Shown here in pieces: positions 4,647-43,448 of a stretch of 44,336 nucleotides of DNA. The DNA is from Wohlfahrtiimonas larvae (GTDB lineage: Bacteria > Pseudomonadota > Gammaproteobacteria > Cardiobacteriales > Wohlfahrtiimonadaceae). The notes under the pieces are model-generated. The model was not told where the DNA came from. It saw only the letters and a program-made list of their open reading frames with translations, and ran no database searches. The stretch lies in NCBI RefSeq assembly GCF_002006755.1, contig NZ_MVDO01000030.1:1-44336 (forward strand). Reading direction: 5' to 3'. Within the stretch, counting starts at the first letter, position 1. The number at the start of each line of letters is the position of its first letter. Made by a program: the position numbers and the translations under genes.

Positions 4647-4760
4647 GTGATCGAGGCAGTCAATATTGCAGTAAAGAATATCGAGCTTGAATATAATCAA
4701 ACTAGGATTCAAAAAGGATTAGGTTGGATATCCCCAAGACAGCTAGCAAATTTATATTAT
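4647..4760 (+). mobile_element. IS3-type transposase C-terminal remnant
   Basis: A plus-strand frame of about 38 residues ending in YNQTRIQKGLGWISPRQL matches the C-terminal end of IS3-family OrfB transposases (the YN-x2-R-x5-L-x4-P pattern after the last catalytic Glu). The frame then runs into antisense RHS sequence at about 4760. Everything upstream of the transposase end is missing, and no intact inverted repeats are seen. It is a scar, not an active element. It defines the left junction of the RHS island, six bases after the pirin stop. Confidence 0.65.
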
Positions 4761-7700
4761 GGGCATCCGTGGCTTCCACTGCCACAATGCGGCCAAGTGC
4801 ATCATAGCTGTATTGGTAACTGCCCAATTGATTGATGGATTGTGACAGCTTTTGGCCATTACCATTCCATGTGTAACCGAGTTCTCCCGTTGGTGTTGTC
4901 ACTTTCAGGGTTTGCCCTAAATCATCACGTTGGTACGTGAGTGATCCACTTTGGCTATCTTTGGTTTCTGTTAAATCACCTTTAGCATTGTAACTGTACG
5001 TGATAGTGCGTTTATCAGGATAAGTGATGCCCTCTAGTTGCTCTTTGCCATTGTATTTAAAGGTTGTGGTTTCGCCTTTAAAATTCTTCGTGCTCAGCAA
5101 ATCACCTTGCGTATTGTAGCTTGAAGATTCCACTTGTCCTTCAGGCAATGCTCTAGAAACTCGTTGCCCCAAATCATTATAGGCAAAACGTGTGGTTTGC
5201 TTATTAGCATCCGTCTGTGTGAGTAACTTCCCTTGGCTGTCATATGTGTAAAGTGTACTTTGATTTAAGCCATCGAGCACTTGATACAACTGGCTAATGC
5301 TATTGTATTTAAATTGCTTTTTCGCACCATTGGGTGATTCTGTGGCAATTTTACGGCCTGCTTTGTCATAATCATGCTTTGTCACTTGGTTGAGCGCATT
5401 CTTTTGCTCAATTAAGCGATTATTATCATCGTAAACATTGGTAACGCTTCTGCCATTAGCATCGGTTTGTTGGATGAGATTGCCAACGGCATCATAATCT
5501 GATGTAGAAACTGTGATATTAAGTGCATTAATGACTTTGGTTTGGCGACCTAACGCATCGTACTCATATTTCGTTTGGTTACCAAGTGCATCAATGGAAG
5601 TAGTTAGTTGACCATTGCCATCGTAAATACTCTCATTCGCAAAACCTAATGCATCGATGGATTTGGTTTCTCGCCCTAAAGCATCAAATTGAGTTTCGCT
5701 ACAGGCCCCATCATCACACACTTTGGTCACTTGGCCTTTAGCATCATAAACTGTTTCAGCAACTCGCCCCCAAGGATCTGTGACTTTGATCTGATTACCA
5801 TTACCATCGTATTCATACGTTGTGGTTCGGCCTTTCGCATCTGTCTGTTGAGTCATTTGATCTAAGCTGTTGTATTCATAACGCTGTGTATTGCCCAGTT
5901 CATCAGTGGATGATAATAAATTACCTTTCACATCAAAAGATTGCTTTGTGGTTAATGTCTTTTTAGTGCCATTTTGTACAACATCATAACTACGCTCAAT
6001 CTCATTGCCATATTGATCGTATTTAAAGCGCGTGACATTGCCTGCTGCATCGGTTTCTGAGGTTTTCAGCTCTTTACCATTGATCTTCTGATAGCCAAAC
6101 GATGTGCTATTGCCCATAGGATCAGTGATGGCGCCCAAGTTACCTGAGAAACTATAGCCAATTTTGGTGGTGTTACCCATAGCATCCTGAATACCACTAA
6201 GCTGCATTGTGTCATGGGTATAAAGGTTCACCGTTTTACGGCCCAACTCATCCACAAATTCTGTGGGTTCATTGTTGGCGTTATAAGCCGTTGTTGTACT
6301 AAAGCCTAAGGCATTTGTCTCTTTGGTGACTTCACCCCATTTATTGTGCTCATACTTTGTGGTGTGACCTAAAGCGTCTGTGATACTTGTTTCATTACCA
6401 AACTCATCATAAGTATAAGTTGTGGTATTGCCTAAAGCATCCGTGACTTTATTGACGTTACCTTGATCATCATAGAGATAAATGGTTTTATTCCCTTGTT
6501 GATCAATCACCACATCTTCATTCTTATCCGTGTTGTGCTCAAGATTCACTTTAAAGCCATTGCCATCCGTTTGAGTCACTAACTGACCTTTGTCATCAAA
6601 CTCGGCTTTGAATAAACGTTTACCATCAGCCCCTATGATTTCATCCAACTGATGTGGCGCCTTCATATTTTGAAGATAAGTGAACTGAGTTTTCTCACCT
6701 TTTGGATCCGTCACGGATTTTAAGTTACCATCACCATCATACGCATACGATAAACTGCGACCATCTGTGGTTTCAGCTTTAACAATGCGACCTTGTGCAT
6801 CGCGGTTAAAGAGAATGTTTGCACCACCTGAATGAAAAATACCATTCTTCGTAAATGATAATGTATTGCCTGTTTTATCCTTAATCTGACGGATACCAAA
6901 GCTTTTATCTAAATAATACACATCACCGTTTTTAGTGGTTAAACGGAACTCATTAGGGTTCACAACATCCACCGTATCATAATCAATCAATTGATCATTA
7001 TGAACACGAAGCTCACCCACATCCGTTGCCACTAATTCCGAAGTTGTGCCACTCATTGGTTCAAAATCAATGCTGAAGAAACTACCCGCCATTTGAGACT
7101 GCCATGTATTACATTCAGGCGATGTTTTAACTTTAAAACGTTCCATTGTGCCACCAGGCATACGAACAGTCACCAAACGTTGCCCAATTGGACGTGGACA
7201 AAACTTAGCATTTAAGCCAGCCCCAACCTTAACGATTTCCCAATCTAAACCAGGTGTACGATTCGTTTGAATCTTCACATCTTGATAAGTTGCACTCCAA
7301 CCAAAGCCAAAATCTAAACGGCTATTTTGATTGAGTGTGTCATAAGTGCGTGTTAAAAAGAGCGGTAAACTGCCTGCTTCAAAGGATAGATCCTCAAAGC
7401 TTAAGGCAAACTGACCAATCTTTTGCTCGCCTTTGAGCATCAAACCAATACCCGCGCTACTTTGATTGCCACCTGCATCTTTAACGATTAACAGTAAATC
7501 ATATTGACCATTCGCCATCGTTTGTGGGTTAATCTCGCCAAGCTTCCCTTTAACGACAGGGACCGTACTTGTTTTAATCGGCGTCCAATCTTTCTCATCG
7601 GCAGGGGAGATATAAAGTGTGTATTCCACAAAGTTCTCATCCATCGCTGTACCAATAATATCCACAGATGTGGTGATCTCTGCCACATTGATATTATCTG

Positions 7701-8025
7701 AGTTCGCAGGCGCTGTAATCTCTGCCGTTGGCGCTGTGATGTCCGCTTCATCTTTAACAATAAAGCGTTTAGAGAATGTGATCTCATTGCCACTCGCATC
7801 AATCGATACTGTTTCCACTAAATGGCCACCCACTTGATCGCTCTTCACTGTGGCTGCGCCATTCACCAAAGTAATGGGCTTGCCATCCAATGTTGCCGTG
7901 GTTGCTTGATAAGGCTTTTCTCCACCTTGAAGCTCTAAGACAATCTCCACATCTTGGTTCACTTTAGCAACAGCGGGTGAGACAAAAAGCTCGCCTTGTG
8001 ATATCAATGCATAAAAAAACTCCAT
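4702..8025 (-). CDS. RHS/YD-repeat core protein, truncated at both ends
   Basis: Forms most of an RHS shell protein. The N-terminal part has Ig-like segments (about residues 10-230), then SFEAGSLPLFLTRTYDTLN, where the RHS barrel begins, and more than 25 YD repeats of the kind TYDEFGNETSITDALG. It stops just after YDALGRIVAVEATDA, because the frame runs into the transposase remnant and gains about 20 unrelated residues. The start is also artificial: the ATG at 8025 lies inside the terminator hairpin of the gene upstream (8013-8037), and real RHS homology begins near 8008. No signal peptide and no C-terminal tip are left. It is best read as a non-functional core fragment, even though the 1107-codon frame is intact and so the damage may be recent. 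Confidence 0.85.
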   Translation of the reverse strand: MEFFYALISQGELFVSPAVAKVNQDVEIVLELQGGEKPYQATTATLDGKPITLVNGAATVKSDQVGGHLVETVSIDASGNEITFSKRFIVKDEADITAPTAEITAPANSDNINVAEITTSVDIIGTAMDENFVEYTLYISPADEKDWTPIKTSTVPVVKGKLGEINPQTMANGQYDLLLIVKDAGGNQSSAGIGLMLKGEQKIGQFALSFEDLSFEAGSLPLFLTRTYDTLNQNSRLDFGFGWSATYQDVKIQTNRTPGLDWEIVKVGAGLNAKFCPRPIGQRLVTVRMPGGTMERFKVKTSPECNTWQSQMAGSFFSIDFEPMSGTTSELVATDVGELRVHNDQLIDYDTVDVVNPNEFRLTTKNGDVYYLDKSFGIRQIKDKTGNTLSFTKNGIFHSGGANILFNRDAQGRIVKAETTDGRSLSYAYDGDGNLKSVTDPKGEKTQFTYLQNMKAPHQLDEIIGADGKRLFKAEFDDKGQLVTQTDGNGFKVNLEHNTDKNEDVVIDQQGNKTIYLYDDQGNVNKVTDALGNTTTYTYDEFGNETSITDALGHTTKYEHNKWGEVTKETNALGFSTTTAYNANNEPTEFVDELGRKTVNLYTHDTMQLSGIQDAMGNTTKIGYSFSGNLGAITDPMGNSTSFGYQKINGKELKTSETDAAGNVTRFKYDQYGNEIERSYDVVQNGTKKTLTTKQSFDVKGNLLSSTDELGNTQRYEYNSLDQMTQQTDAKGRTTTYEYDGNGNQIKVTDPWGRVAETVYDAKGQVTKVCDDGACSETQFDALGRETKSIDALGFANESIYDGNGQLTTSIDALGNQTKYEYDALGRQTKVINALNITVSTSDYDAVGNLIQQTDANGRSVTNVYDDNNRLIEQKNALNQVTKHDYDKAGRKIATESPNGAKKQFKYNSISQLYQVLDGLNQSTLYTYDSQGKLLTQTDANKQTTRFAYNDLGQRVSRALPEGQVESSSYNTQGDLLSTKNFKGETTTFKYNGKEQLEGITYPDKRTITYSYNAKGDLTETKDSQSGSLTYQRDDLGQTLKVTTPTGELGYTWNGNGQKLSQSINQLGSYQYSYDALGRIVAVEATDAHNINLLAVLGISNLILFES

Positions 8026-8037
8026 TTAAGGAGTTTT
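8013..8037 (-). terminator. Terminator after the SUKH immunity gene
   Basis: Minus-strand stem AAAACTCC/GGAGTTTT with a six-base loop and a T-rich tail, 27 bp after the stop of the gene at 8064. Confidence 0.8.
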
Positions 8038-8063
8038 AGTGTAAACATAAAAACATCAAAAAG

Positions 8064-9341
8064 TTATGTGGCTTTATGCTTTTCAATAATTTCTTCTATT
8101 TTGGGGATCATGATTTGTTCCATAAAAATCAAGTAATTTTGAGCAACTACTTCAACTTTCTCTCCTGTAACTCTAATCACTTGCCCAACAGGTTTATTTT
8201 TAGTTTCTTCATAATCAAGATAATAACAATCAGTCTCCGCCAATTGCATAATAGGAAACCACATAGGTTTGGATAGTTTTTTATTGATTATCTTTTTAAT
8301 TAATGAATCGGCACTTTGTTGGTATTCCGAGAAAGGATAACAACCATCTGGAAATAACTCTTGAATTTCAGTTTCAAGCTCCGACATTTTCACAGAACCA
8401 TCATCATTTAACTCTCGTTTATCCCAAATATTTTCATAGTCATATTGCCGATTTTTATAGTTATAAATCCCTCCAAATTTTTCTGCTACTTTTTCTATTA
8501 TTGGATCAGGAGAAATATGAAAGTTTTCGTATTCTAATGGTAAATATTGCCATGTGTATGGTGTTATTTTGTGGTATATATTTTGTAGTTTTTCTATAAC
8601 ATGAGCTATTCTTTGATCGGTAACCGTTAAAATAGAATAAAGAATAGAATATAAATTTTCCATAAATGTAGTTGTTTCTATGGATAAATTCTTTTCTTCA
8701 CATTCTATAATCATATTGGCAATATTAGGATGCTCCTTAAGATACTTTTCATAGGCTTTGTTATAACTTTCTTTATCCATCCAATCGATAACATTGTTTA
8801 TCTCTGAAAACTTCTCAATTTTATTATCTTCAAGTAATTGATAGAAATTCTTAATGTCACCTATTGAATGCTTATCATAAAACTGGGCAATACACTTATT
8901 ACCTAAATTTGTGATTTCAGGTAAATACTTATTTGGCAGCTCCTTACTATCAAATTTATTAGTTGGTAGAAATTGTTGGGGCACATCTTTTAACTTTAAT
9001 TTAAAATACTTGAGTTCTTCTCTAACTATTTGTTTTGAAAAATCATGGTTAATATAAAAATCCTGTAAAAAATAAACACTATTCCAGTAGTGAGGCAAAA
9101 TGCTCACACCAATATAGTTAATGGCATCCTTACTTATATTTAGAGGAAGATATGCTGTGTAATGACTAGAAGACGGTACATATTCCATATTTATTTTTGG
9201 TACTTCAATAATCGCAACGACTTCAAACAAAGTGTAATGCAGAAGGACAATTTTATGCACAACATTATTTGGGCTAAAAAGCTCCATCACTTTGGTTTTA
9301 TCTTTGAAGATTGAAAAATCTGTTTCAATAATTTCATACAT
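8064..9341 (-). CDS. SUKH (SMI1/KNR4)-like immunity protein
   Basis: Probable immunity partner of the toxin tip just upstream. The last 70 residues carry a SUKH-like signature: MWFPIMQLAETDCYYLDY, then GQVIRV and VVAQNYLIFME, as in SMI1/KNR4 proteins (W-x-PI ... LD ... G-x-I ... VA-x-S/N-F/Y-x-x-F). The preceding roughly 350 residues match nothing I recognise and are Lys/Glu/Asn/Ile-rich, so this is a long member. A longer frame begins at 9395, but its first 18 codons are a terminator hairpin (9357-9388); the ATG at 9341 is the likely start. Immunity by binding the adjacent nuclease tip is inferred from family and neighbourhood. Confidence 0.65.
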   Translation of the reverse strand: MYEIIETDFSIFKDKTKVMELFSPNNVVHKIVLLHYTLFEVVAIIEVPKINMEYVPSSSHYTAYLPLNISKDAINYIGVSILPHYWNSVYFLQDFYINHDFSKQIVREELKYFKLKLKDVPQQFLPTNKFDSKELPNKYLPEITNLGNKCIAQFYDKHSIGDIKNFYQLLEDNKIEKFSEINNVIDWMDKESYNKAYEKYLKEHPNIANMIIECEEKNLSIETTTFMENLYSILYSILTVTDQRIAHVIEKLQNIYHKITPYTWQYLPLEYENFHISPDPIIEKVAEKFGGIYNYKNRQYDYENIWDKRELNDDGSVKMSELETEIQELFPDGCYPFSEYQQSADSLIKKIINKKLSKPMWFPIMQLAETDCYYLDYEETKNKPVGQVIRVTGEKVEVVAQNYLIFMEQIMIPKIEEIIEKHKAT

Positions 9342-9356
9342 AGTTTTATGTCTCGT

Positions 9357-9388
9357 AAAAAAAATACGTTTCAGTAATGAAACGTATT
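9357..9388 (-). terminator. Terminator between RHS tip and immunity gene
   Basis: Minus-strand perfect 11-bp stem AATACGTTTCA/TGAAACGTATT with a four-base loop, followed by eight T residues. It sits between the stop of the RHS tip (9416) and the likely start of the immunity gene (9341). Confidence 0.85.
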
Positions 9389-9415
9389 CTCTCATAGCTT
9401 TTAATTGATTATGAG

Positions 9416-10489
9416 TTATTTTTTTCTTCTAACTCTATCAGCTTCATTTATACAATTTTGATTTTTTGACAGATTTTTAACAGCATTTGGTAAGACATAG
9501 CGTTCCGTTTCTTTCACAAAATATGAGTAAAAAACAGCAGGTGTTAAATTTGTTCCTGTTCGATTAGCACCAAGAACAGGCTTCATCAAATAATCATTTT
9601 TATAATAGTAATAATGCAGTGCTGAAGTTATCGCCAACCTTCCATAAGGCTTAACTGCGAGTTCAATCAGAGGTGAACTTGTTGCACCTCTTTTCTTCTT
9701 ATGAAGAGCAACATCTAATCCCTTCCTTCCAACCTTAACTGCAGTATCAAATAGGTACATTTGAGTATGTAAAGTTGAATGTGATGCAATATCAATTCTA
9801 GCAGTATATGTATAGTCATCAGGCCCACACATATATTTGGGAATTGTATGGTGATCATTAAATCCACTAGCACTTAACAATAAAGCTGGATATAAAGTAT
9901 CATCCATTGGAACCGTTCCCTTATCATCATAATCATTGTTAACAAGCACTTTCAAAAGCATCATCGTAAAAATATCAGATAACCCAGGTTGATCCATTGT
10001 TCCTTCAAAAATCTTTCCAAAGATATAATCGTGTAAATAATCCCTTGCCATATAGTTCAATGTTGACTGAATGCCTTGTGAGATATTGATATCCATCAAT
10101 CCAAAATGACCTGTTGGATCACTCATATTCACAGGATCAGCATGTGCGTACAAATACGGATTCAAGCTAATCGGTGTGGTTTTCATGCCTTCAAAACTAT
10201 CACGGCTAATGAATCGACCAATCTTCGGATCATAATGTCTTGCTCTAAAGTAATAGAAGCCTGTTTCTTCATCCAATACTTCGCCCACATAGCGGTGTTT
10301 GATGTGGCTTTCAGGGTTGGCATTTGATGCTAACGGATTACCAAACGCATCATAATCAAACTTAGTTTTTGTGCCGTTGTTATTCACAACTAAGCGCGTA
10401 GAGCCTTTACCATCTTGATACAAATGCTCTGTGCCAGCATCCGATTGTAAGAGTAGATCACCCACGCCATCTGGTGCATACAGGTACAA
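9416..10489 (-). CDS. RHS C-terminus with HNH-like nuclease toxin tip, 5' truncated
   Basis: The first 130 residues are the end of an RHS core: FDYDAFGNPL, RYVGEVLDEETGFYYFRARHYDP, GRFISRD and the junction motif DPVNMSDPTGHFG. The variable tip follows (about residues 130-357). It has NDHHTIPKYMCG at about 211-222 and SHSTLH at about 236-241, the paired-histidine pattern of HNH/endonuclease-VII-like polymorphic toxins, so DNA or RNA cleavage is likely. There is no upstream core: the frame opens after a stop at about 10520 and has only a TTG as a possible start. It cannot be exported as it stands, so it is an orphan tip cassette or a gene remnant. The SUKH immunity gene follows. Confidence 0.75.
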   Translation of the reverse strand: MYLYAPDGVGDLLLQSDAGTEHLYQDGKGSTRLVVNNNGTKTKFDYDAFGNPLASNANPESHIKHRYVGEVLDEETGFYYFRARHYDPKIGRFISRDSFEGMKTTPISLNPYLYAHADPVNMSDPTGHFGLMDINISQGIQSTLNYMARDYLHDYIFGKIFEGTMDQPGLSDIFTMMLLKVLVNNDYDDKGTVPMDDTLYPALLLSASGFNDHHTIPKYMCGPDDYTYTARIDIASHSTLHTQMYLFDTAVKVGRKGLDVALHKKKRGATSSPLIELAVKPYGRLAITSALHYYYYKNDYLMKPVLGANRTGTNLTPAVFYSYFVKETERYVLPNAVKNLSKNQNCINEADRVRRKK

Positions 10490-10559: not shown

Positions 10560-10583
10560 CGTTATATTTGACAATATATAACG
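10560..10583 (+). promoter_or_regulatory. ModE operator upstream of the metal-uptake operon
   Basis: Perfect inverted repeat CGTTATAT-N8-ATATAACG. It contains the ModE core TATAT-N7-TATAT (consensus TATAT-N7-TAYAT) and has the same arm spacing as the E. coli modA operator as I recall it. It covers the -35 element of the promoter at 10568-10596, the arrangement expected when molybdate-loaded ModE represses. No modE gene lies in the window. Confidence 0.8.
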
Positions 10584-10596
10584 GTTATCTTAATCT
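10568..10596 (+). promoter_or_regulatory. Sigma-70 promoter of the uptake operon
   Basis: TTGACA (10568-10573), 17-bp spacer, TAATCT (10591-10596). Predicted start near 10603, about 39 bp before the ATG at 10642. The -35 lies inside the ModE box. Confidence 0.75.
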
Positions 10597-10641
10597 GTGG
10601 TTTCCCTTAAATCACTAATTAATTAACTAGTCACTTTGTAT

Positions 10642-11691
10642 ATGGAAAATCGCCGTAGCTTTTTAAAGAAAATGTTAGTGACATCCCTAGTCGCGCATTT
10701 TCCTGTCATCCTCATGGCAGAGACAAATCAATCATTTTTGATAAAAAGCTTCGGCGAGATTCCTTCACCACAAAATATTCACCGAGTATTAAGTGCTGGC
10801 CCTGTTGCGGATGTACTATTATTATCATTAGCGCCAGAAAAATTATTAGGATTGTCGACACATCCTTTATCAGATATTCAAAAACCTTTTTTTAGTCAGC
10901 ATTTACAACAATTATCCCAAACTGGTCGTTTCGCTGGCCGTGGCACAACTGCTTCTTTAGAAAAAGTTATACAAATGAAGCCTGATGTGATTGTTGATAT
11001 TGGTAACATCACTCCCACTTACATCAGTACTGCTGAGCGTGTTCAATCACAAACCAACATTCCCTACCTTTTAATGAATGGCTCATTAGCAGAAACACCG
11101 CAACAATTATCTCATTTGGGTGAATTATTGGGTGTTAAAAATCGTGGGCAATTATTATCAAATTATGCACAAAAAGTATTATCACAAACTCATAATATTG
11201 CTGACAAAGCTACCGAATCATCCCAATTAAAAGTTTATTCTGCGCGCGGTGCCGATGGTTTAGAAACAGGTTTAGCAGGCTCCATTCATACTGAAGTTTT
11301 AGATTGGATAGGTGCAAAAAACGTCGTAGAAGGCGCAGGTGAAAAAATCATTGCTCGCGTTTCTATGGAACAACTAATGCTATGGCAACCTGATGTAATC
11401 ATTGCGATGGATCATCATTTTTATCAAAAAGTCTTCACTGATCCATTATGGCAACGCTTACCTGCTGTAAAAAATAGACGCGTTTATTATGCCCCGAAAT
11501 TACCTTTTGGTTGGTTAGATCAACCACCAAGCATTAATCGCTTATTAGGTGTTTCTTGGCTCGCTCACGTTTTATATCCTGAATTATTATCTTATGATGA
11601 TTATGCCCAAAATATCATTGAATACTATCAATTGTTCTATGGTTATTCATTATCACATGAAGCCTTAACTCAGCTCACTGGAACGATTTAA
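10642..11691 (+). CDS. Tat-exported metal/oxyanion-binding protein of an ABC importer (MolA-like)
   Basis: Periplasmic binding protein of the FecB/BtuF/MolA class (class III, two lobes joined by a helix). The N-terminus NRRSFLKKMLVTSLVAHFPV is a twin-arginine signal, so it is exported folded. The mature protein has ADVLLLSLAPEKLLGLS, LEKVIQMKPDVIVDIG and a C-terminal lobe WQPDVIIAMD. The start is set at ATG 10642 because the Tat motif begins there; the Shine-Dalgarno is weak. It overlaps the permease stop-to-start (TTTAATG). The ModE box upstream argues for molybdate/tungstate, as for H. influenzae MolBCA of the same transporter class; cobalamin, heme or iron chelates are alternatives. Confidence 0.75.
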   Translation: MENRRSFLKKMLVTSLVAHFPVILMAETNQSFLIKSFGEIPSPQNIHRVLSAGPVADVLLLSLAPEKLLGLSTHPLSDIQKPFFSQHLQQLSQTGRFAGRGTTASLEKVIQMKPDVIVDIGNITPTYISTAERVQSQTNIPYLLMNGSLAETPQQLSHLGELLGVKNRGQLLSNYAQKVLSQTHNIADKATESSQLKVYSARGADGLETGLAGSIHTEVLDWIGAKNVVEGAGEKIIARVSMEQLMLWQPDVIIAMDHHFYQKVFTDPLWQRLPAVKNRRVYYAPKLPFGWLDQPPSINRLLGVSWLAHVLYPELLSYDDYAQNIIEYYQLFYGYSLSHEALTQLTGTI

Positions 11692-12677
11692 TGGTTAGGT
11701 TGTTAATTCCACCCATTGCATTATTTGTAATGGTGCTGATCGCATTTTGTGTTGGGCAGATCAATATTCCTTTCAGTGATTTAATCCATGCTTTTAAAGA
11801 ATTATTCAATAGTGAAACATTGAGCGATCAAAGCTTTGTGCTATGGAATATCCGTTTACCCAGAATCCTTACGGCAATTTTATCGGGTGCAGCTTTAGCA
11901 GTTGCGGGCAGTACTTACCAAGGCATGTTCAGAAACCCTCTAGTTTCACCTGATATTTTAGGTGTTTCCGCAGGTGCAGGTTTGGGCGCTGTGCTTGCCA
12001 TTTATCTGAACTATTCTGTGATTGGCGTACAAATTTTTTCCTTCATCTTTGGCTTAGGCACAGTATTTTTAGTTTATATTATTTCTCAATGCGTTCGTCG
12101 ATTAGATCCAATATTAGCACTTGTTTTATCGGGCATTGCTGTTGCAGCTTTACTCGGTGCTAGCATTTCCATGATTAAATTATTATCTGATCCTTACAGC
12201 CAACTTACTGTAATCACATTTTGGATGATGGGATCATTAACAATGGCAACCATGAGCGATTTAGTCATTGTTACACCGTTATTATTTGTGAGCATTATTC
12301 CACTCATTTTATTACGTTGGCGCATGAATTTACTCAGCCTCAATGATGAAGAAGCTCTCACGCTTGGCGTGAATATTAAACATTTACGTATTATTTTTAT
12401 TTTATCTGCCACATTGATGACATCGGCAACCGTTTCCATCACTGGCATCATTGGTTGGATCGGCTTAGTGATTCCTCATATTGCACGTTTATGGGTTGGG
12501 CCAGATTTTAGAAAAATGTTGCCAACTGCCCTATTTTTAGGTGCAACTTTCTTATTGCTGACAGACACAATCGCCCGTACAGCATTCCCAATAGAAATTC
12601 CGCTCGGTGTATTAACTGCATTCATTGGCGCGCCTTTCTTCATTGGTTTATTGATCAATGGCGGAGCAAAATCATGA
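11691..12677 (+). CDS. FecCD/BtuC-type ABC permease (MolB-like)
   Basis: Inner-membrane permease of the FecCD family with about ten hydrophobic segments in 328 aa, the usual length. Family landmarks are visible: IRLPRILTAILSGAALAVAGSTYQGMFRNPLVSPDILGVSAGAGLGA near residues 50-100, and GIIGWIGLVIPHIAR near 250, the loop that couples to the ATPase, followed by LLTDTIARTAFPIEIPLGVLTAFIGAPFFI. Start and stop overlap both neighbours (TAATG before it, ATGA after it), so the three transporter genes are translationally coupled. Cargo is inferred from the ModE operator, not from the permease itself. Confidence 0.9.
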   Translation: MVRLLIPPIALFVMVLIAFCVGQINIPFSDLIHAFKELFNSETLSDQSFVLWNIRLPRILTAILSGAALAVAGSTYQGMFRNPLVSPDILGVSAGAGLGAVLAIYLNYSVIGVQIFSFIFGLGTVFLVYIISQCVRRLDPILALVLSGIAVAALLGASISMIKLLSDPYSQLTVITFWMMGSLTMATMSDLVIVTPLLFVSIIPLILLRWRMNLLSLNDEEALTLGVNIKHLRIIFILSATLMTSATVSITGIIGWIGLVIPHIARLWVGPDFRKMLPTALFLGATFLLLTDTIARTAFPIEIPLGVLTAFIGAPFFIGLLINGGAKS

Positions 12678-13429
12678 GCTTAATTCAATTACAGGATTTA
12701 ACGATTGGTTATCGTGGGCAGATCATCGCGGAAAAACTGAATCTTTCCTTTCAACCTCAAGAAGTGACTTGCTTATTGGGTGCCAATGGTTGTGGCAAAA
12801 CAACGTTATTGAAAACCATTTTAGGTATATTGCCGAAAATCGCAGGCGAAATATTAATTAATCAAAAGCCTCAACAGAAATGGCAGCGTAATGAGTTATC
12901 AAAATATTTAGGTTATGTGCCACAGGCACACAACCACGTATTTCCCTTCACTGTAGAAGCTGTTGTACTTATGGGTAGAACCGCACATTTAAATTGGTAT
13001 TCATCCCCAAAAACAGAAGATAAAGCCATTGCCTATGAATGCATTCAACAATTAGGTATTGAGCATTTAACATATAAACCTTATACCCAATTAAGCGGTG
13101 GGCAACAGCAATTGGTATTGATAGCACGAGCTCTAGCACAGAATCCATCTTTTCTAATCATGGATGAACCAACAGCCAGCTTAGATTTTGGCAACCAAAT
13201 GCGCGTGCTAGAACAAATTGAAAAACTCAAAGCCCAAGGATTATCCATATTGATGACAACGCACCAACCTGAGCATGCGATGCAAATTGCAGATCGTATT
13301 ATCTTATTAGACCACGGCAACATCATTGCAGATGGCTCAGCCAAAGCATGTTTAACATTAAAAAACTTAGCGCAGATTTATGCGCTCGATGAATCTATCA
13401 TCGCCAAAAACTTACCCTTCATTGTTTAA
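12674..13429 (+). CDS. ABC transporter ATPase (MolC/FepC-like)
   Basis: Cytoplasmic ATPase of the FepC/BtuD class, 251 aa. Walker A is GANGCGKTT (about residues 37-45), the Q-loop region GYVPQAHNHVFPF is near 82, the ABC signature is LSGGQQQLVLIARAL (about 140), Walker B is FLIMDEPTASLD (about 160) and the switch histidine is in TTHQPEHA. All catalytic parts are present. It overlaps the permease by an ATGA junction and is followed after 18 bp by the methyltransferase, so all belong to one transcript. Confidence 0.92.
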   Translation: MSLIQLQDLTIGYRGQIIAEKLNLSFQPQEVTCLLGANGCGKTTLLKTILGILPKIAGEILINQKPQQKWQRNELSKYLGYVPQAHNHVFPFTVEAVVLMGRTAHLNWYSSPKTEDKAIAYECIQQLGIEHLTYKPYTQLSGGQQQLVLIARALAQNPSFLIMDEPTASLDFGNQMRVLEQIEKLKAQGLSILMTTHQPEHAMQIADRIILLDHGNIIADGSAKACLTLKNLAQIYALDESIIAKNLPFIV

Positions 13430-13447
13430 CCTTAGAGGAATGACATT

Positions 13448-14266
13448 ATGTCTAATTCTAAAACCATTTTTGATGTCGATTTTGCAGAACTTTATCGCAA
13501 CCATGTCGCTCAAGCAATTCGTCAACCCAAAACATCAGATGATTGGGATAAAAAAGCTCACAATATGAAATCTGGCGGTGGTTGTGCGGGTGCATCTTAC
13601 ATTCAAGATTTTACATCTCGCATGGACTTAACGAATGCAAGTACATTATTAGATGTTGGCTGTGGCGGTGGCACAATTGGCTTAGCTTTAGCATCAGGCT
13701 TAGAAAAAGTTTACGAATTAGATTACAGCCCCAAAATGCTAGAAGTTGTGAAAGAACGCGCGGCAGAACAAAATATTGATAACTATGAATGCATTTTGAA
13801 ATCATGGGATGACAATTGGGATGATGTGCCTGAATGCGATATTTGTGTATCTTCTCGCTCTTCCATGGTCAATGACATTGAATCAGCTTTAGCAAAACTT
13901 AATAGCAAAGCCAAAAAAGCAGTCTATATGACAATGACGGTGGATAAAGATTTCATCAGCCGAGATATTTTGCGCGCTATTGGCCGTGATGATATCGGCT
14001 TCCCTACTTATATTTACGCTATGAACCTGCTTTATCAGCAAGGTTATCGTGTTTCTGTGGATTTTTTAGAAACACAAAATTGCTCAAGCAAAGTGCTCAC
14101 ATTGGATGAGCCAAGCTTTATCGAAGCTGTTCAATGGTCAATCGGTACATTGAATGAAGAAGAAATTGATCGTTTGAAGCATCACTATCAAAAACATCAA
14201 TCCAAACTTTATTCAGCACAACCTATGCAACGTGCATGGGCTTTTATTCATTGGAAAACTCACTAA
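13448..14266 (+). CDS. SAM-dependent methyltransferase of the uptake operon
   Basis: Class I methyltransferase, 272 aa. Motif I is LLDVGCGGGTIGLAL (about residues 67-81), followed by LDYSPKMLE as the acidic ribose-binding strand. The N-terminal region has KKAHNMKSGGGCAGASYIQDF, a Gly/Cys-rich segment that could face the substrate. An AGAGGA ribosome site precedes the ATG, 18 bp after the ATPase stop, and the TonB receptor starts 16 bp later, so the gene sits between importer and receptor genes. The substrate is unknown. A role in modifying an imported chelator or a small-molecule metal ligand is a guess from context. There is no signal peptide, so it acts in the cytoplasm. Confidence 0.8.
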   Translation: MSNSKTIFDVDFAELYRNHVAQAIRQPKTSDDWDKKAHNMKSGGGCAGASYIQDFTSRMDLTNASTLLDVGCGGGTIGLALASGLEKVYELDYSPKMLEVVKERAAEQNIDNYECILKSWDDNWDDVPECDICVSSRSSMVNDIESALAKLNSKAKKAVYMTMTVDKDFISRDILRAIGRDDIGFPTYIYAMNLLYQQGYRVSVDFLETQNCSSKVLTLDEPSFIEAVQWSIGTLNEEEIDRLKHHYQKHQSKLYSAQPMQRAWAFIHWKTH

Positions 14267-14282
14267 GTTAAAAAACATTATA

Positions 14283-16447
14283 ATGATCAAAAACTCCTCC
14301 TCATTTAAAATCAGCAAAATTTCAGCAGCATTATTACTCTGCTTCTCTGTTGCTTATGCTGATCAAACAACACAGCCAACTGACGAAATTGAAAGTACCG
14401 AGCAAACTACAAAAAGTAATGTATTCACATTGGGAACAGTTGTGGTTTCTGCATCTGTACCACAATCATCGGAGCTATTTGAATCGTACATTGGCAAAGA
14501 AACCATTGATTTATTAGAAGCTAAAGATGTAGGCGAAGCTTTACAATATACACCGGGTGTTTTTTATGATTCACCAATAGCTTCTGGCAATTCAGGGCGC
14601 TTTGAATCAGGCGTAACAGTCCGTGGTTATGGCTTACGTTATGTGCCGATATATGTAGATGGCATTCCTGTTTATATTCCTTATGATGGCTATTCGGATA
14701 TGGGCCGTTTTTCAACTGCAGATATTTCATCGATTCAAGTGGCTAAAGGTTACAGCTCTGTCATGTATGGTCATAATACAATGGGTGGCGCGATCAATAT
14801 CGTCACCATGAAACCACGATCTAAATTTGATTTTTCTGGCGTCATTGGTACTGGCACTGGAGATGTAAAAGAAACAAGCATCAATATCGGTACCTTACAA
14901 GAAAATTGGTATTTACAAGCAGGTTTTTCTGATCGAACACGTAAATATACGCGCCTAGCGGATAACTATGTAGGTAAAGATGCTGAAGGCCAATTTGTTA
15001 ATTCAGATAAATATCTCTATAACACTAAAGATCGCCGTGCCAACATTAAACTAGGTTGGACACCGAATGCTACAGATGAATATGTTTTGAGTTATTCTAA
15101 ACAAAAAGCCAAAAAATATCCGGGGCATATAGGACACAAAGGTTTTATCCCAACCACTTGGAAATGGCCGAAATGGGATCGTGAAACGATTTCGTTTGTT
15201 TCGACCACATGGTTAATGGATAATAAAATTTATATCAAACCTCGCCTTTATTATGATACTTATAAAAATACATTAACAGGTTGGCGCGGTGACCCTAAAG
15301 GTAGCCATTATGACGATAAAGCATTTGGTGCGTCTGTGGAAATTGGTACAACAGCAATCAATAATCATTTAGTCAAAATGATGCTAAGTTATAAAGATGA
15401 AACCCATGAATCATTCGATACTTTCCCGAATTCATCATTACACATGCCAGATTCTGATTCTAAAGCAACGCAAAAGTTCTATTCAATTGCCTTAGAAGAT
15501 ACAATTACATTCACAGAACAATGGGAAGCACAATTGGGCGTTGTGTATACAAAACGTAAAGCGACAGCGAGCGATATTGGTATTAATACTCAACATTTAT
15601 TGAATACTTACCCTTCTGCTAATTCGATGTTAGCACCATCTTATGATTCGACAGATTTTCAAGCAGCTCTATTCTATAAACCAACAGATTTAGATACTTT
15701 CCGCTTTACTGTCGGTAAAAAAACTCGTTTCCCAAGTTTCAAAGAATCCTACTCTAATTATGCTGGCGGTTCGGAAAGAAAATGCCCTAAGGGACAAACT
15801 GGCTGTAAACCTGGTGAATTTGTACCAAGCATCACCTTACAAAATCCTGGTCTGAAACCTGAAAGTGCACTCAATATTGAATTGGGCTATAACGGTACAC
15901 CTATTGATGGTTTAACAATGGATACTGCATTATTCTATAGCCAATCCAAAGATGCGATTGATCGCAGTGACTTTGATTATAATACTTTCCCCGGTTATGC
16001 ATTCGTCAATCCATTAACTTACCTGGAAAAGTTGAACGCAAAGGTATTGAGTTAGGCTTGGATTATGAGTTAAACCCATATCTACAATTAGGTGCTGGTT
16101 ATACTTATTTGGATGTTAAAAATAAAGATCATAAAGAGATCAAAATTAAAGATACACCAAAACATTTTGGCTATCTTTATGCATCCATCAAACCAATGGA
16201 CTGGATTGCAATCACACCATCTATGACAGGCCGAAGCAGCAGTTATGCCAATATGGAAGGCTCAGAAAAAAATAGAGCTTATCAAGTTTATAATTTAAAA
16301 GTCAGCATTACACCACCACAATGGCAAGGCGTTACATTTAATGCAGGTATTGAAAATATTTTCAACAAAAATTATGCATCATTCAATAATGACTATTCAT
16401 CACCAGGCCGATCCTTCTATGCCAACATGCGCATTGATTTTTATTAA
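14283..16447 (+). pseudogene. TonB-dependent outer-membrane receptor, frameshifted
   Basis: Outer-membrane receptor that would bring a metal complex into the periplasm for the ABC importer. A signal peptide ending AYA precedes DQTTQP. A TonB-box-like TLGTVVVSA is followed by the plug (EALQYTPGVFYDSP, VTVRGYG, VDGIPVYIPYDG, SVMYGHNTMGGAINIVTMKP) and the beta barrel, ending NMRIDFY with the usual terminal aromatic. The barrel is split: frame one stops at 16055, and the rest continues at minus one from about 16019 (LPGKVERKGIELG). Adding one T at ACTT (16018-16020) restores one frame of about 720 residues. The damage is near the last quarter, so the protein would lack its final strands. Sequencing error is possible. 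The start is ATG 14283 because the signal peptide begins there. Confidence 0.8.
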
Positions 16448-24433: not shown

Positions 24434-25383
24434 GCGTTTTTCTCCTTATCAATCTCATTAACTTCTTTTGCTAATTTCTTAGGATCAATAATATCTTTGC
24501 CCTTATCTTTGCTATCTGCATCATTCGGCCCTACAGTGATAAAATGTAAGAACCCAAATAATACAGAAGCTGCGATACCAAAAGTTGATAGTGGTTTTAA
24601 GAAGCCTTTCCAAACCTCTGTAAACATACTGATCTTCGGATCTTTTGGAAGATTAGAATAGGCTTGTGGCTGGTCAGCATGATGCAATACATAAACAACA
24701 TGTGTACCACCTACTCCTTGAGGATTATAAACACCTGCATTATCAAAACCACGTGTTTTTAGCTCTGTAACTCGCTCTTCAGCAAAATGCAACATATCAT
24801 CACGTGCACCAAAACGAATCGCACCTGTTGGACAGGTTTTAACACATGCTGGTTCTTGACCAACTGCCACACGATCCGAACACAAAGTACACTTATACGC
24901 TTTGTTATCATTTTTGCTAATGCGAGGAATATTGAAAGGGCAACCTGTAATACAGTAACCACAACCAATACAATTTTCTTCATGAAAATCGACAATACCA
25001 TTTTCATATTGAACAATTGCACCAGGAGATGGACAGGCCTTCAAACACCCTGGATCTTCACAATGCATACAACCATCTTTGCGAATCAACCATTCTAATT
25101 TATCAGCTTCATCTGGCTTATTGGCAACATTTTCTGCTTCCGCAAAACGCATTACAGTCCAGCTTTCTGCTGATAAATCATGTGGGTTATTATAAGTACC
25201 ATCACAGGTTCCAACTTTATCACGAATATCATTCCACTCAGAACAAGCCACTTGACAAGCTTTACAACCAATACAAGAAGTTACATCAATCACTTTTGTC
25301 ACTTCTGTTACATGTTGACGAGTTTGTGGAGGTGTCGTTGAAGTTGCTGACAAACGCTTAATATCTAACGATTGCAATGCCAT
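24430..25383 (-). CDS. fdnH: Formate dehydrogenase beta subunit (four [4Fe-4S])
   Basis: Iron-sulfur subunit that wires the catalytic subunit to cytochrome b556; also called FdxH. Four ferredoxin cysteine groups are present: [11 protein letters not shown] (about 38-48), [13 protein letters not shown] (about 105), [11 protein letters not shown] (about 138) and CTLC...CVKTC (about 165-185). A single transmembrane helix near residues 260-282 ([17 protein letters not shown]) anchors it on the periplasmic face, as in E. coli FDH-N. The length is 317 aa against 294 in E. coli; the extra residues are a charged C-terminal tail. Its ATG overlaps the alpha stop (TAATG). Confidence 0.95.
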
Positions 25384-28300
25384 TATGCACCTCCTTGTAC
25401 TTTCTCAATATTCACGAGGAAAGTTTTAAACTCAGGCGTTTGCGTATTTGCATCTCCCACGAATGGTGTCAACGTATTAGCAATAAAGCCTTGTTTTGTT
25501 AAACCTTCATACCCCCAATGAATAGGAATACCAATATGATAAATTGGCTTACCATTAACCATAAGTTTTTTCATACGTTTAGTTACAACAGCAACAGCCT
25601 TAATATAACCACGTTTTGAAGTCACCTTAACTTTATCACCATTGGCAATACCTTTTTCCTTCGCCAATTCTTCACTCATTTCGATGAATTGTTCAGGCTG
25701 AGCAATTGCATTTAACAATGCATGCTTTGTCCAATAATGGAAATGCTCAGTCAAACGGTATGTAGTACCTACATAAGGGAACTCATCCATATTCCCCAAT
25801 TGTTCTCTGTCATTTTCAAACATACGAACAGCAGGGTTATTGAGCTGTTTTGGATACATTAAGTTAACGCCAATAGGTGATTCCATTGGTTCATAGTGCG
25901 ATGGGAAAGGTCCTTCTGCCATTTTATCAATTGCAAATAAGCGACTCACACCTTCTGGATTCATAATGTATGGATTCATTGCTGTACCAGGTGGTTCATC
26001 CGCTTTGAAGTCAGGAATATCATAACCTGTCCATTTTTTACCATTCCAGAAAATTAATGCGCGCTCTTTATCCCATGCTTTACCATCACGATCTGCTGAT
26101 GCACGATTATAAATAATCCGGCGGTTCAACGGCCATGCCCAAGCCCATCCCAAAGTATTTCCTAAACCCGATGGATCGCTATTATCACGATTTGCCATTT
26201 GGTTACCCTGTTCAGTCCAAGAACCTGCATAAATCCAACAACCTGATGCCGTTGTACCATCATCCTTCAAATTAGCAAAGCTGGAAATTAATTCTCCTTT
26301 ACGCTGAATAATATTGCCAGAAGCATCTTTAATATCTTCCAAAGCATAACCATTCAACTCTTTAGCCAATTCATCTGGATGAGGTTTGGATGGAATACGA
26401 TAATCCCACGCAATATTCATGATGGGTTCAGGATTCACACCACCTTGATCTTTATATAACTTGCGCAGCTCAAACATAATACCCGACAAAATATTAACAT
26501 CCGGTTGTGCTTCACCCGGCGCATCAGCAGCTTTCCAATGCCATTGCAACCAGCGTGCTGAGTTTACAATCGAACCATCTTCTTCTGCAAAACACGTGGT
26601 GGGTAAACGATAAACTGTTGTTGCAATCTTACTTGAGTCAACATCATTAGATTCACCATAGTTTTTCCAGAATGTCGATGTTTCTGTCACCAATGGGTCC
26701 ATTACCACTAAGAATTTCAACTTAGATAACGCAGAAATACTCTTATTCTTATTTGGGAATGATGCAACAGGATTGAAACCTTGACAGAAATAGCCATTGA
26801 TTTCACCTTTACTCATCATGTCAAAGACACGAAGAATATCGTACATTTTGTCCCATTTAGGCAACCAATCAAAGCCCCAATTATTTTCTTTTGTTGCATT
26901 TTTACCCCAATATGTCTTCATTAAGCTCACAAAGAATTTTGGTGTATTGCCCCAATAATTTAACTGTCCTGGACGATTCGCCTTAGGTGTCGTTTGAGTA
27001 ATATATGTCTGATAATCAGTTTGCTTATCATTTGGCAAGTTTAAATAACCTGGCAAATTTGTTGATAATAGACCAATATCAGTCAAACCTTGAATATTCG
27101 AGTGTCCACGTAATGCATTGACACCGCCACCAGGCATACCAATGTTACCCAATAATAATTGAATCATTGCCATGGTACGAATATTTTGTGCACCTACAGT
27201 ATGCTGAGTCCAGCCTAAAGCATATAAGAAAGTTGCAACTTTATTATGCTCTGCACATGTACCTAATGTTTCACACACTTTCAAGAAATCAGCCACAGGT
27301 GTACCAGTGATAGTGCTCACTAGTTCTGGCGTATATTCCGCATAGTGTTTTTTCATTAAATTGAATACACAACGAGGGTGCTCCATTGTAGGATCTACAA
27401 CGGCATTACCATCTTCATCCAACTCATAATTCCAAGAGGATTTATCTGTGTAAGCATTTTTTTCTTCATCCCAACCAGAGAATAATCCCTCATTGAAACT
27501 AAAATCTTCACGCACAACAAAATTTGCATTGGTATAGTTTTTAACATACTCCCAATTAATTTTGCCATTTTTAACGAGCCAATTAATTACACCACCCAAG
27601 AACGCAATATCCGTACCTGAACGAATTGGTGCATAAAAATCAGCAACAGATGCTGAGCGGTTAAAACGAGGATCAACAACGATGAACTTAGCGCCACGTC
27701 TTTGTTTTGCCTCAACAACCCAACGAAAACCAACAGGATGCGCTTCCGCGGCATTCCCACCCATTACAATAATTACATCGGCATTACGAATATCAACCCA
27801 GTGATTCGTCATGGCGCCGCGACCAAATGATGGAGCAAGACTTGCTACCGTAGGACCATGTCAGACCCGAGCCTGATTATCTATGGCCAACATCCCCAAT
27901 GATCGTACAAATTTACTTGTAATGTGCCCTGCTTCATTACTACCACCTGATGCTGCTAAAAGCCCAGTTGTTAGCCAACGATTGACGCGAGTACCTTTAT
28001 CATCATGAACAACCATATTGGCATCACGATCTTCTTTGACTAGTGCTGCAATTTCTTTATAAGCTTGATCCCAGCTAATACGCTCCCATTTATCTGAATT
28101 TGGTCGACGTACTTCAGGATATTTCAAACGATTAGGACTATGTACATAATCTAATAACCCTGCACCTTTAGGACATAATGCGCCACGGCTTACTGGATGA
28201 TCTGGGTCCCCTTCAACATGAATAACGGCCTCTTTTGCATTAAATGCACCGTCACCCATACTGTACATTAACAATCCGCATCCCACTGAACAATAAGTAC

Positions 28301-28448
28301 AAGTATTACGAACTTCCTTTGCACGCAATATTTTGTACTGGCGAACTTCCGCATTAGCGATACTTGGCGCCATTCCCATTAACGCTAAGCCAGTTCCCCC
28401 AACAGCTCCTGCGGACAGTTTAAAAAACTGTCGTCTAGAAACTTCCAT
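25383..28448 (-). CDS. fdnG: Selenocysteine formate dehydrogenase alpha subunit (read through UGA)
   Basis: Periplasmic catalytic subunit that oxidises formate to CO2 using Mo (or W) bis-MGD, a selenocysteine and one [4Fe-4S]. The N-terminus [15 protein letters not shown] is a twin-arginine signal. The cluster motif [14 protein letters not shown] is at about residues 51-64. The frame is broken once, by TGA at 27861-27863, in [27 protein letters not shown]. This is codon 196, the position of Sec in E. coli FdnG, and a SECIS hairpin follows. Downstream are [28 protein letters not shown] and the C-terminal MGD-binding domain. The full product is about 1021 residues, usual for FDH-N/O. The start has AGAGG upstream. 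First gene of fdnGHI-fdhE. Confidence 0.95.
27832..27863 (-). promoter_or_regulatory. SECIS element with the UGA codon
   Basis: Directly after the UGA (27863-27861), the minus strand has a stem GG-AGCAA/TTGCT-CC with loop GTC and one bulged U. The bulged U is base 17 counted from the U of UGA, matching the bulged U of E. coli formate-dehydrogenase SECIS elements. It would bind SelB. Confidence 0.85.
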
Positions 28449-28753: not shown

Positions 28754-28783
28754 AATCGTAATATCTATTTTGATATTACGATT
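28754..28783. promoter_or_regulatory. 12-bp inverted repeat, ModE-like or terminator
   Basis: AATCGTAATATC-N6-GATATTACGATT. The inner arms CGTAATAT-N8-ATATTACG have the spacing of the ModE box at 10560 and differ at one base per arm. On the minus strand it is followed by TTTTT, so it may instead be a second terminator for the gene ending at 28908. Confidence 0.5.
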
Positions 28784-40622: not shown

Positions 40623-40676
40623 ATGGAAGTAGAATTGGAGTATCTAATTCAAAATTTTCAAGGTTTTACTTCCAAA

Positions 40677-41882
40677 ATGGCCAAAATCATACTTCCACTT
40701 ACTTCCAAACAAGTCAAAGAAGCCAAACCAACGCTTAGAGCTTACAAGCTTTATGATGGTGCAGGTTTAATTCTAACAGTTTATCCAAGTGGTAAAAAAG
40801 TTTGGAGATTGGACTATAAAGATCTCAATAAAAAACGTAAAACTTACACGATTGGTGATGCCCAACATATCTCTTTATCTGATGCCAGGAAAAAACGTGA
40901 TGAACTCAAAGGGATCCTTGAAAATCATCAAAGCATATCCAAAAAAGACATCATGACATTTGGCCAAGTTTTCTATGAATGGTTTGATAAATGGAAATTG
41001 CTTGTTGTTGAATCAACAGCTAAACGTGCATTATCATCTATGAAAAAGGATTGCTTCCCTGTGATTGAAAATATGGACATCACTAAAATAAAACCAAAAA
41101 ATATTGTTGCAGCATTATCGCCAATCGATGAACGTGGATCTGGTGAAACATTAGAGAAAACCAAATCAGCACTTAAATTAACTTTTGATTATGCAGTTGC
41201 ACGTGGTATATGTGATATGAATCCTGTCTTAGCAGTCACCGCATCAGCTTTTACAGCTCATGAAACCAAGCACCATCGAGCTTTAGATGCTTCAAAAATA
41301 TATATGCTTCATGATTTTTTCATGTCTAATCGAAATTCAATTATTGTCAGAAAATGTACTGAATTTACACTCAGAACAATGTGTAGAATTAATGAATCTG
41401 TCTGCGCCACTTGGGATGAAATTGATGGAAATACTTGGACGATTCCTGCAGAAAGAATGAAGGAAAGAAGACCGCACATTGTTCATCTAACAAAGCAATC
41501 CATGTCAATTATTGAAGAAATGAAAAAATTCAAATCTTCAAAATATATATTTCAAAATGATCATTTAAATCATCATATACATAAAGATACACCAAATACT
41601 GCTATTAATAGATACGGTATTGATAGCACTGTACATGGTTTACGCTCATTAGCATCAACTGTATTGAATGGTACATGTCTATTTGATAAAGATCTTGTTG
41701 AAATGTGTCTATCACACAAAGATAAAGATGCTGTACGTGCAGCATATAATCGTGCTCTGTATCTAGAACAAAGAAAAGAGATTCTTATTTTTTGGAGTGA
41801 CTTTATAGATATGTGCGATACAGAAGAAAATAATATAAAAACTTTAGAAAAGTTCAAGCTTATACAATTAAACGACGATTAG
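40677..41882 (+). CDS. int: P4-type tyrosine integrase
   Basis: Site-specific recombinase with the DUF4102 arm-binding domain (LTSKQVKEAKPTLRAYKLYDGAGLILTVYPSGKKVWRLDY), a SAM-like core-binding domain (about 100-180) and the catalytic domain. Active residues seen are Arg in MCRINESVC, His-x-x-Arg in STVHGLRSLAS, His in CLSHKDKD, and Tyr in RAAYNRALYLEQR. A start at 40677 (MAKIILPLTSKQV) fits the family better than one 18 codons upstream. It reads away from the tRNA, as in P4-type elements. The length of 401 aa is full size. Confidence 0.9.
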   Translation: MAKIILPLTSKQVKEAKPTLRAYKLYDGAGLILTVYPSGKKVWRLDYKDLNKKRKTYTIGDAQHISLSDARKKRDELKGILENHQSISKKDIMTFGQVFYEWFDKWKLLVVESTAKRALSSMKKDCFPVIENMDITKIKPKNIVAALSPIDERGSGETLEKTKSALKLTFDYAVARGICDMNPVLAVTASAFTAHETKHHRALDASKIYMLHDFFMSNRNSIIVRKCTEFTLRTMCRINESVCATWDEIDGNTWTIPAERMKERRPHIVHLTKQSMSIIEEMKKFKSSKYIFQNDHLNHHIHKDTPNTAINRYGIDSTVHGLRSLASTVLNGTCLFDKDLVEMCLSHKDKDAVRAAYNRALYLEQRKEILIFWSDFIDMCDTEENNIKTLEKFKLIQLNDD

Positions 41883-42466
41883 TATCATCCAAGTAAAACT
41901 ACAGCGCACAAAACAAAAGTATGTAGGTAATCTATCACGCCGCGCGCTCACCTTCCCGCACCCCCGCGCTAAAAACACACTCTTTTTATTAATATGACCA
42001 GGCTAATGATATTGGCCCTTTGGCATTGTAGTAATGCGAGTTCTTGTAGAAGATGGAATGGCCAAATTGTTATTAAAGATTATCAGAATTAATAAGTGCT
42101 GTGCAAGTACAAAATTTGAATGAATTTACTCACCAAAAGTAGCTTGCTCATTTATATGTCCTGCAATTTTCTTGTATGCAACGGAAAGTTATGACATTAT
42201 GACAATTAGATAAAATATACATATAACCAACTGAAATATAATAAGAAAACTTGTCATAAAATAAAATAACATTCTATGACAATGTCATAAAAATAGCGTG
42301 ATAAATGATTTTAAAATTACTCTTTGAATACAAATAGTTATAAGAAAATGTAACAAATGTCATACAAAGTTATGTTCTTTTGTGACAATAAAATATATTT
42401 AAAATCATATTGTTATATAAAATAAATACCATTTGTCACATTGTCACACTTTTCCGATACCATGCT
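41883..42466. other. 584-bp non-coding prophage segment with cos-like patch and TGTCA repeats
   Basis: No frame over 60 codons. It holds a GC-rich patch at 41937-41970 (next entry), about 200 bp of ordinary AT-rich sequence, then repeated TGTCA/TGACA motifs from 42191 to 42448, including the perfect palindrome TATGACA-A-TGTCATA (42275-42289) and the tandem TTGTCACA TTGTCACA (42433-42448). Confidence 0.7.
41937..41970. other. Candidate cos site (GC-rich patch)
   Basis: About 75-80% G+C in surroundings near 30%. On the minus strand it reads GCGGGGGTGCGGGAAGG, then GAGCGCGCGG, similar in layout to the P2 cohesive-end region as I remember it (GGCGAGGCGGGGAAAGCAC, then GCGCGC). In P2 the cos site lies beside gene Q, the same place as here. 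Confidence 0.5.
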
Positions 42467-43438
42467 CTATTTATCTGAATTACTTTTGATAAGTGCATAC
42501 TCTGTGAAATCAAATATCTTCATGCCTAATTTTGTATTGATACCATTCAATCTATTGATAATCGGTAACATTTCATTGAAATAATAGACAGTTGCACGAT
42601 CTTTAACATTGCCAAATCCACCTGTATTTGTAGGCATGATTGATAACAGTTCTGGTGGCATGCGGTGCGCGGCTAAAATATCATCACGTGTGACATTCTT
42701 AATATTTACAAACTCATCTTTGGTGGCAATCTCTGAAATTGGTATTAAATTCACAGCATTCTTATCACCTTTTGGCATGTGGATCATCATATTACTGAAG
42801 TTATTCACGCCTTTTGAATTTTTAAGTTGATCATTAATAGCCTTCAAATCATCATCTGTCATTTCACCATTGATGCTTAAAATAAATCCCGCATATGAGC
42901 CGTTTTTATAATAACGATAACGGAAGATTGTCGCGCTGTGGTTCAGCACAATATCCAATAATGCACCTAAATACTTGGGCACACCATAAATGTTCTGTGT
43001 TGGATCATAAGCTTTAAAATGAATGATCTCTTTAATCTCTGTAATATCTTGGCCAACTTCTGTATTCAGTCTGAAGATATAAGAACCATCCCTTTTCTTA
43101 CGGATATTATTGGCCATACGATGATCAAATTGCATCACACCCCCAAGTTTATTACGTACAGGCACAAAGTAGGCATTACCAAACACAAAATAATCAGAAA
43201 TGAACTTCTGAAATTCATTAGTATCTAAGAATTTTGTTGGTTTAAAGCATGATGACAAGATATTAGTTTTGGCTTCCAAAGCTGATTCATGATGTGCATT
43301 CATCTTGATGGATTCAGTTAATACACCATAATCAACAGGTGGATTATAGTAATCACCCACCAATGAACATCTTAAAAATGATGATATTGGATCATTGATG
43401 ATGTCGAAATCTTTATATATTTTGAATGTATTATCCAT
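42467..43438 (-). CDS. Phage portal protein (P2 gpQ / PBSX type)
   Basis: Forms the portal ring through which DNA enters the capsid. It has the P2-like gpQ pattern: DNTFKIYKDFDIINDPISSFLR at the N-terminus, YFVFGNAYFVPVRN (about 89-102), EIIHFKAYDPTQNIYGVPKYLGALLDI (about 136-162), and DILAAHRMPPELLSIMPTNTGGFGNVKDRATVYYFNEMLPI (about 254-294). The length of 323 aa is slightly below P2 gpQ (344). It lies 10 bp after the terminase gene on the same strand, reproducing the leftward P-Q operon of P2. Confidence 0.9.
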   Translation of the reverse strand: MDNTFKIYKDFDIINDPISSFLRCSLVGDYYNPPVDYGVLTESIKMNAHHESALEAKTNILSSCFKPTKFLDTNEFQKFISDYFVFGNAYFVPVRNKLGGVMQFDHRMANNIRKKRDGSYIFRLNTEVGQDITEIKEIIHFKAYDPTQNIYGVPKYLGALLDIVLNHSATIFRYRYYKNGSYAGFILSINGEMTDDDLKAINDQLKNSKGVNNFSNMMIHMPKGDKNAVNLIPISEIATKDEFVNIKNVTRDDILAAHRMPPELLSIMPTNTGGFGNVKDRATVYYFNEMLPIINRLNGINTKLGMKIFDFTEYALIKSNSDK

Positions 43439-43448
43439 GATTAACCTA

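Follow-up and report, generated by a model that had tools for sequence, protein, structure and literature searches.

The usual view is that molybdate uptake begins with diffusion through porins. Among the closest described systems, MolBC-A of Haemophilus influenzae, of the FecCD class, is a low-affinity molybdate importer that works without a TonB receptor, and its binding protein MolA takes bare molybdate or tungstate (PMC4031551). A review from 2020 that covers molybdenum enzymes and molybdenum uptake in pathogens never mentions TonB (PMC7759655). We found no prior description of a TonB-linked, ModE-controlled FecCD system, although most subscription papers, the 2003 survey of ModE sites and RegPrecise lay outside the search.

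Here we describe such a candidate in a 44,336-nucleotide stretch of DNA from Wohlfahrtiimonas larvae (contig NZ_MVDO01000030.1; the window, below). All genes of the operon lie on the plus strand. A substrate-binding protein (SBP) of the Peripla_BP_2 family (PF01497; 10642..11691), from a sister clade to MolA, is followed by a FecCD permease (11691..12677; PF01032, 298 bits), an ABC ATPase (12674..13429; PF00005), a class I SAM-dependent methyltransferase (13448..14266; PF13847/PF13649) and a TonB-dependent receptor. The SBP and permease genes overlap by 1 bp and the permease and ATPase genes by 4 bp, with gaps of 18 and 16 bp thereafter, so the gene coordinates bear out the order and tight spacing (overlaps or gaps under 20 bp) claimed in an earlier note on this DNA. 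The receptor that the note placed last has its plug and barrel domains but is not one reading frame: an N-terminal part carrying the plug and most of the barrel (14283..16055; PF07715, PF00593) is separated by a frameshift from a C-terminal part in another frame (16058..16447; C-terminus of TIGR01783). The frame is broken near 16000-16055 in this assembly and is intact, at 719-763 aa, in the related genomes G013, G014 and G015; the split is either a frameshift or an assembly error. Directly divergent from the operon is a minus-strand group at window 4702-10489, made up of an RHS-repeat gene (1107 aa, with 10 stretches of RHS repeats) and the ORFs 8064-9395 and 9416-10489, neither of which gave a Pfam match. 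The contig ends in phage integrase, portal and terminase genes (40623-44174), the edge of a prophage.

The operon is preceded by a promoter that can be read directly, TTGACA-N17-TAATCT (10568..10596, plus strand; TTGACA at 10568-10573, TAATCT at 10591-10596, spacing 17). Over its -35 element the earlier note had placed a ModE box, CGTTATAT-N8-ATATAACG, and the match proved exact (10560..10583, no strand assigned). The full 24 bp, CGTTATAT-TTGACAAT-ATATAACG, form a perfect inverted repeat whose 8-bp spacer holds the TTGACA, and the SBP gene starts 58 bp downstream. The E. coli ModE consensus is ATCGNTATATA-N6-TATATANCGAT (PMC545781); aligned with this 28-mer, ATCGTTATATTTGACAATATATAACGGT shows 3 mismatches outside the N positions, all of them at outer or inner edge letters. 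Whereas 0.29 chance matches with up to 3 mismatches are expected in the window, the operon box has 0 mismatches, and it is the only exact copy of the 24-mer in the 2.5-Mb genome. Dinucleotide shuffling of the 330-bp upstream region never matched its quality (0/1000). Because the box sits over the -35 element, repression by ModE at this promoter is inferred; the inference rests on the position of the site, without binding or expression data.

The regulator on which this reading depends, and which the earlier note had proposed to look for, is encoded in the genome. The modE gene (L008 1129-1893) specifies a protein of 254 aa with HTH and TOBE domains that scores 104 bits against TIGR00637, over the cut-off. 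A second ModE-like protein of 125 aa (G000:C224:17831-18076) has the DNA-binding domain only and remains below the cut-off (86 bits). The genome also encodes a molbindin; a TOBE search of the genome did not find ModC.

Scanning the genome for further boxes, as had also been suggested, yielded six sites with at most 2 mismatches, which include modABC (box just upstream of modA), napA (box 100 bp upstream) and fdnGHI. Since four of these six best sites precede the uptake operon, modABC, napA and fdnGHI, the 24-mer marks molybdenum genes in W. larvae. The fdnGHI site lies in the window itself. The formate dehydrogenase alpha subunit, a Mo/W enzyme that the earlier note had correctly recognised, occupies 25383..28448 on the minus strand as two ORFs (27861-28448 and 25383-27812) with an in-frame selenocysteine TGA. 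Its box, which the note had missed, is palindromic with 2 mismatches (CGTAATATC-N6-GATATTACG; 28757..28780, no strand assigned) and stands ~310 bp ahead of fdnGHI-fdhE, the operon that encodes this selenocysteine enzyme. A fifth site, again with two mismatches (L025 3106-3129), is found ~50 bp before a beta-lactamase-fold gene of the ODP family; it is possibly an unrecognised ModE target, possibly chance. The sixth falls inside an ORF. As a caveat, three-mismatch matches across the genome do not exceed background, judged by a reversed control pattern, and boxes with 4 or 5 mismatches inside genes were treated as background and left out.

Conservation in relatives, on which the earlier note had also staked its proposal, follows the regulator. 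modE and the box occur together in four Wohlfahrtiimonas genomes (this one, G013, G014 and G015), and the promoter is kept as TTGACA-N17-TAANCT in three Wohlfahrtiimonas relatives; the SBP is 94% identical to its W. populi counterpart. Three further members of the family (G009, G010 and G012) carry the operon at 59 to 63% SBP identity, and in these the box is gone and modE was not found by two kinds of search. This joint absence may be regarded as a natural test, though a single event may explain it.

Beyond the family, homologous operons with a box were found in E. coli, Proteus, Rhizobium, Shinella, Paracoccus and four other gammaproteobacteria. At most 2 of 1000 shuffles of the operon-upstream sequence equalled the box in each of E. 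coli, Proteus, the genomes G534, G182 and G209, Rhizobium, Shinella and Paracoccus. The E. coli operon, ordered SBP-permease-ATPase-methyltransferase-modD-TonB receptor, has its box (CGCTATATGTGTAAGTATATAGCG) 48 bp before the start; another allele, from the O157 lineage, CGATATATATGTAAATATATAGCG, fits too. Of the 5426 complete E. coli genomes, 2101 (~39%) carry the operon, under the annotation of an iron transport system. In one O157-lineage E. coli (L071 7860-8672) the methyltransferase is annotated as a pseudogene with an internal stop, the transporter, modD and receptor being intact. Proteus mirabilis shares the E. coli-like gene order and has boxes before both the SBP and the receptor genes; G209 and G534 have operon boxes with 1 mismatch each; and in G182 modE is divergently adjacent to the operon with an exact box in between. 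modD is located inside the operons of E. coli, Proteus and G534, and the alphaproteobacterial operons, some of which carry a TrmO-like methyltransferase, adjoin mop, moeA and modA. Boxes were all-or-none, with either at most 4 mismatches (at most 2/1000 shuffles) or at least 6. No recognisable box was seen at the presumed start of seven operons (Azospirillum, G241, G406, G520, G681, G535 and G739), several of whose genomes have ModE-like proteins.

To place the SBP relative to MolA, a tree was built that also included 20 further Peripla_BP_2 proteins from these genomes; in it the SBP clade and MolA grouped with support of 0.98 (0.59 for the SBP clade alone). The two share only ~24% identity. 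A profile of the clade scored best against the solved structure 4pag (226 bits), followed by 4ovk and then MolA (109 bits); a structure prediction from two near-identical sequences reached a pLDDT of 32 and was discarded. With 24% identity, a sister-clade position and a true MolA alongside in G534, the SBP does not qualify as an orthologue of MolA. On these comparisons it is related to MolA, yet not MolA, and the system is not MolBCA itself. Peripla_BP_2 genes outside the operon served as controls: of the 24 in six of these genomes, just one had a box (3 mismatches), and this was the true MolA of G534 (474 bits to HI_1472), which coexists with the TonB/methyltransferase operon. Because the sole boxed control gene is a true MolA, a known molybdate importer is marked in the same way, and the gene is an unplanned positive control. 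In the same region of G534 (L128 5136-8745), where the MolABC homologue has its ModE-like box, a neighbouring ModA-like gene has a palindromic box of its own.

Taken together, modE, the conserved boxes and the grouping of the SBP with MolA support the proposal of the earlier note that the operon is a ModE-controlled Mo/W uptake system, with the ligand and the choice between Mo and W remaining inferences. The operon probably imports a Mo (or W) compound through the outer membrane, the cargo being assigned because of the regulation, the neighbouring genes and the MolA relationship. We are rather confident that it is a ModE-repressed operon for Mo (or W) uptake spanning both membranes, in the absence of binding, expression or uptake data; the frameshifted receptor gene and the seven homologous operons without a recognisable box count against it. 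The genes, box, modE, conservation, the loss of the box where modE is missing and the neighbours can be read from sequence; repression and Mo/W specificity are inferred from them.

What the operon carries is less certain. It cannot be the sole molybdate importer: the same genome has a modABC with its own ModE box and another modABC set accompanied by modD, and because of these two sets the operon would be dispensable for free molybdate. A chelate is a more likely cargo than free molybdate, the ligand being unproven. Three things favour it: two ModABC-like systems take the free oxyanion, the operon includes a TonB receptor, and its methyltransferase is specific to it (among 369 gammaproteobacterial genomes the subfamily occurs in only 2, each time within the uptake operon). 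It remains possible, if on balance unlikely, that free molybdate or tungstate is imported as by MolBCA, with the receptor concentrating a very scarce oxyanion and no chelator involved. The SBP clade is, after all, sister to a binder of bare molybdate and tungstate (PMC4031551); this reading nonetheless offers no account of the dedicated methyltransferase or of modD, and the genome's two ModABC-like systems already serve the free oxyanion. Oxyanions, moreover, pass through porins. Tungsten, destined for the selenocysteine formate dehydrogenase, seems an improbable cargo in place of molybdenum: MolA also binds tungstate (PMC4031551) and the formate dehydrogenase operon in the window has its own box, but napA and modABC, both molybdenum genes, are among those with a ModE box. 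We also know of no tungsten requirement in E. coli or Proteus, which carry the operon.

The database annotation, iron ABC transporter, would instead make this a siderophore, haem or B12 uptake operon incidentally under ModE, for example for catechol siderophores that also bind molybdate. The FecCD class and a receptor weakly resembling siderophore and B12 receptors are in keeping with it, but scores against every curated model for haem, siderophores and B12 stay far below cut-off, the SBP groups with MolA and away from the remaining SBPs of these genomes, and the neighbours are molybdenum genes. No Fur box was found in 11 operons (best 6 to 8 mismatches of 19, reached by at least 8% of shuffles), and Fur control was rejected. 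We give an iron cargo little credence. That the box is merely a chance palindrome is scarcely credible: the genome is AT-rich and three-mismatch matches occur at background level, but an all-or-none conservation that tracks modE within the family and independent recurrence in many lineages, beside the shuffling result, indicate that chance is already refuted, short of a direct binding test.

One reading, to which we give somewhat less than an even chance, is a dedicated route in which an organic Mo/W complex (a molybdophore) enters, under ModE control, by way of the TonB receptor and the FecCD transporter, and the methyltransferase (TrmO-like in some alphaproteobacteria) and ModD alter the donor atoms and free the metal. 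With cytoplasmic molybdate plentiful, ModE would occupy the box and block RNA polymerase at the -35 element; as molybdate falls, the operon would be expressed. The receptor would draw the ligand across the outer membrane and the SBP would pass it to the FecCD permease and ATPase. In the cytoplasm the methyltransferase, with ModD where present, would act on the ligand, most plausibly by modifying the chelator so that the metal is freed. The chelate ligand and the role of the methyltransferase are speculative. ModD, which resembles quinolinate phosphoribosyltransferase, would at last have a role if the molybdophore route were true, and the operon family in any case offers a functional context for this uncharacterised protein. 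With this family, the long-standing question of molybdenum uptake as chelates can be put to the test, and its members suggest that Pseudomonadota have an active outer-membrane step under ModE control.

Compared with known systems, the operon resembles H. influenzae MolBCA (HI1470-1472), a FecCD-class importer with a sister-clade Peripla_BP_2 SBP, from which it differs by adding a TonB receptor, a methyltransferase and often modD; both systems coexist in G534. ModABC(D) shares the ModE box, the metal and, in some operons, modD, but has an SBP of another family (PF13531), another permease and no outer-membrane receptor. MorABC of Rhodobacter capsulatus is likewise an extra transporter, Mo-repressed through the ModE-like MopA/MopB; it is ModABC-like, however, rather than of the FecCD class, and a TonB receptor is not mentioned (PMC6925177). 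The TonB/FecCD systems for siderophores, haem and B12 are alike in overall architecture, whereas the uptake operon is set apart from them by a ModE box in place of a Fur box, a separate SBP clade and the presence of the methyltransferase and modD.
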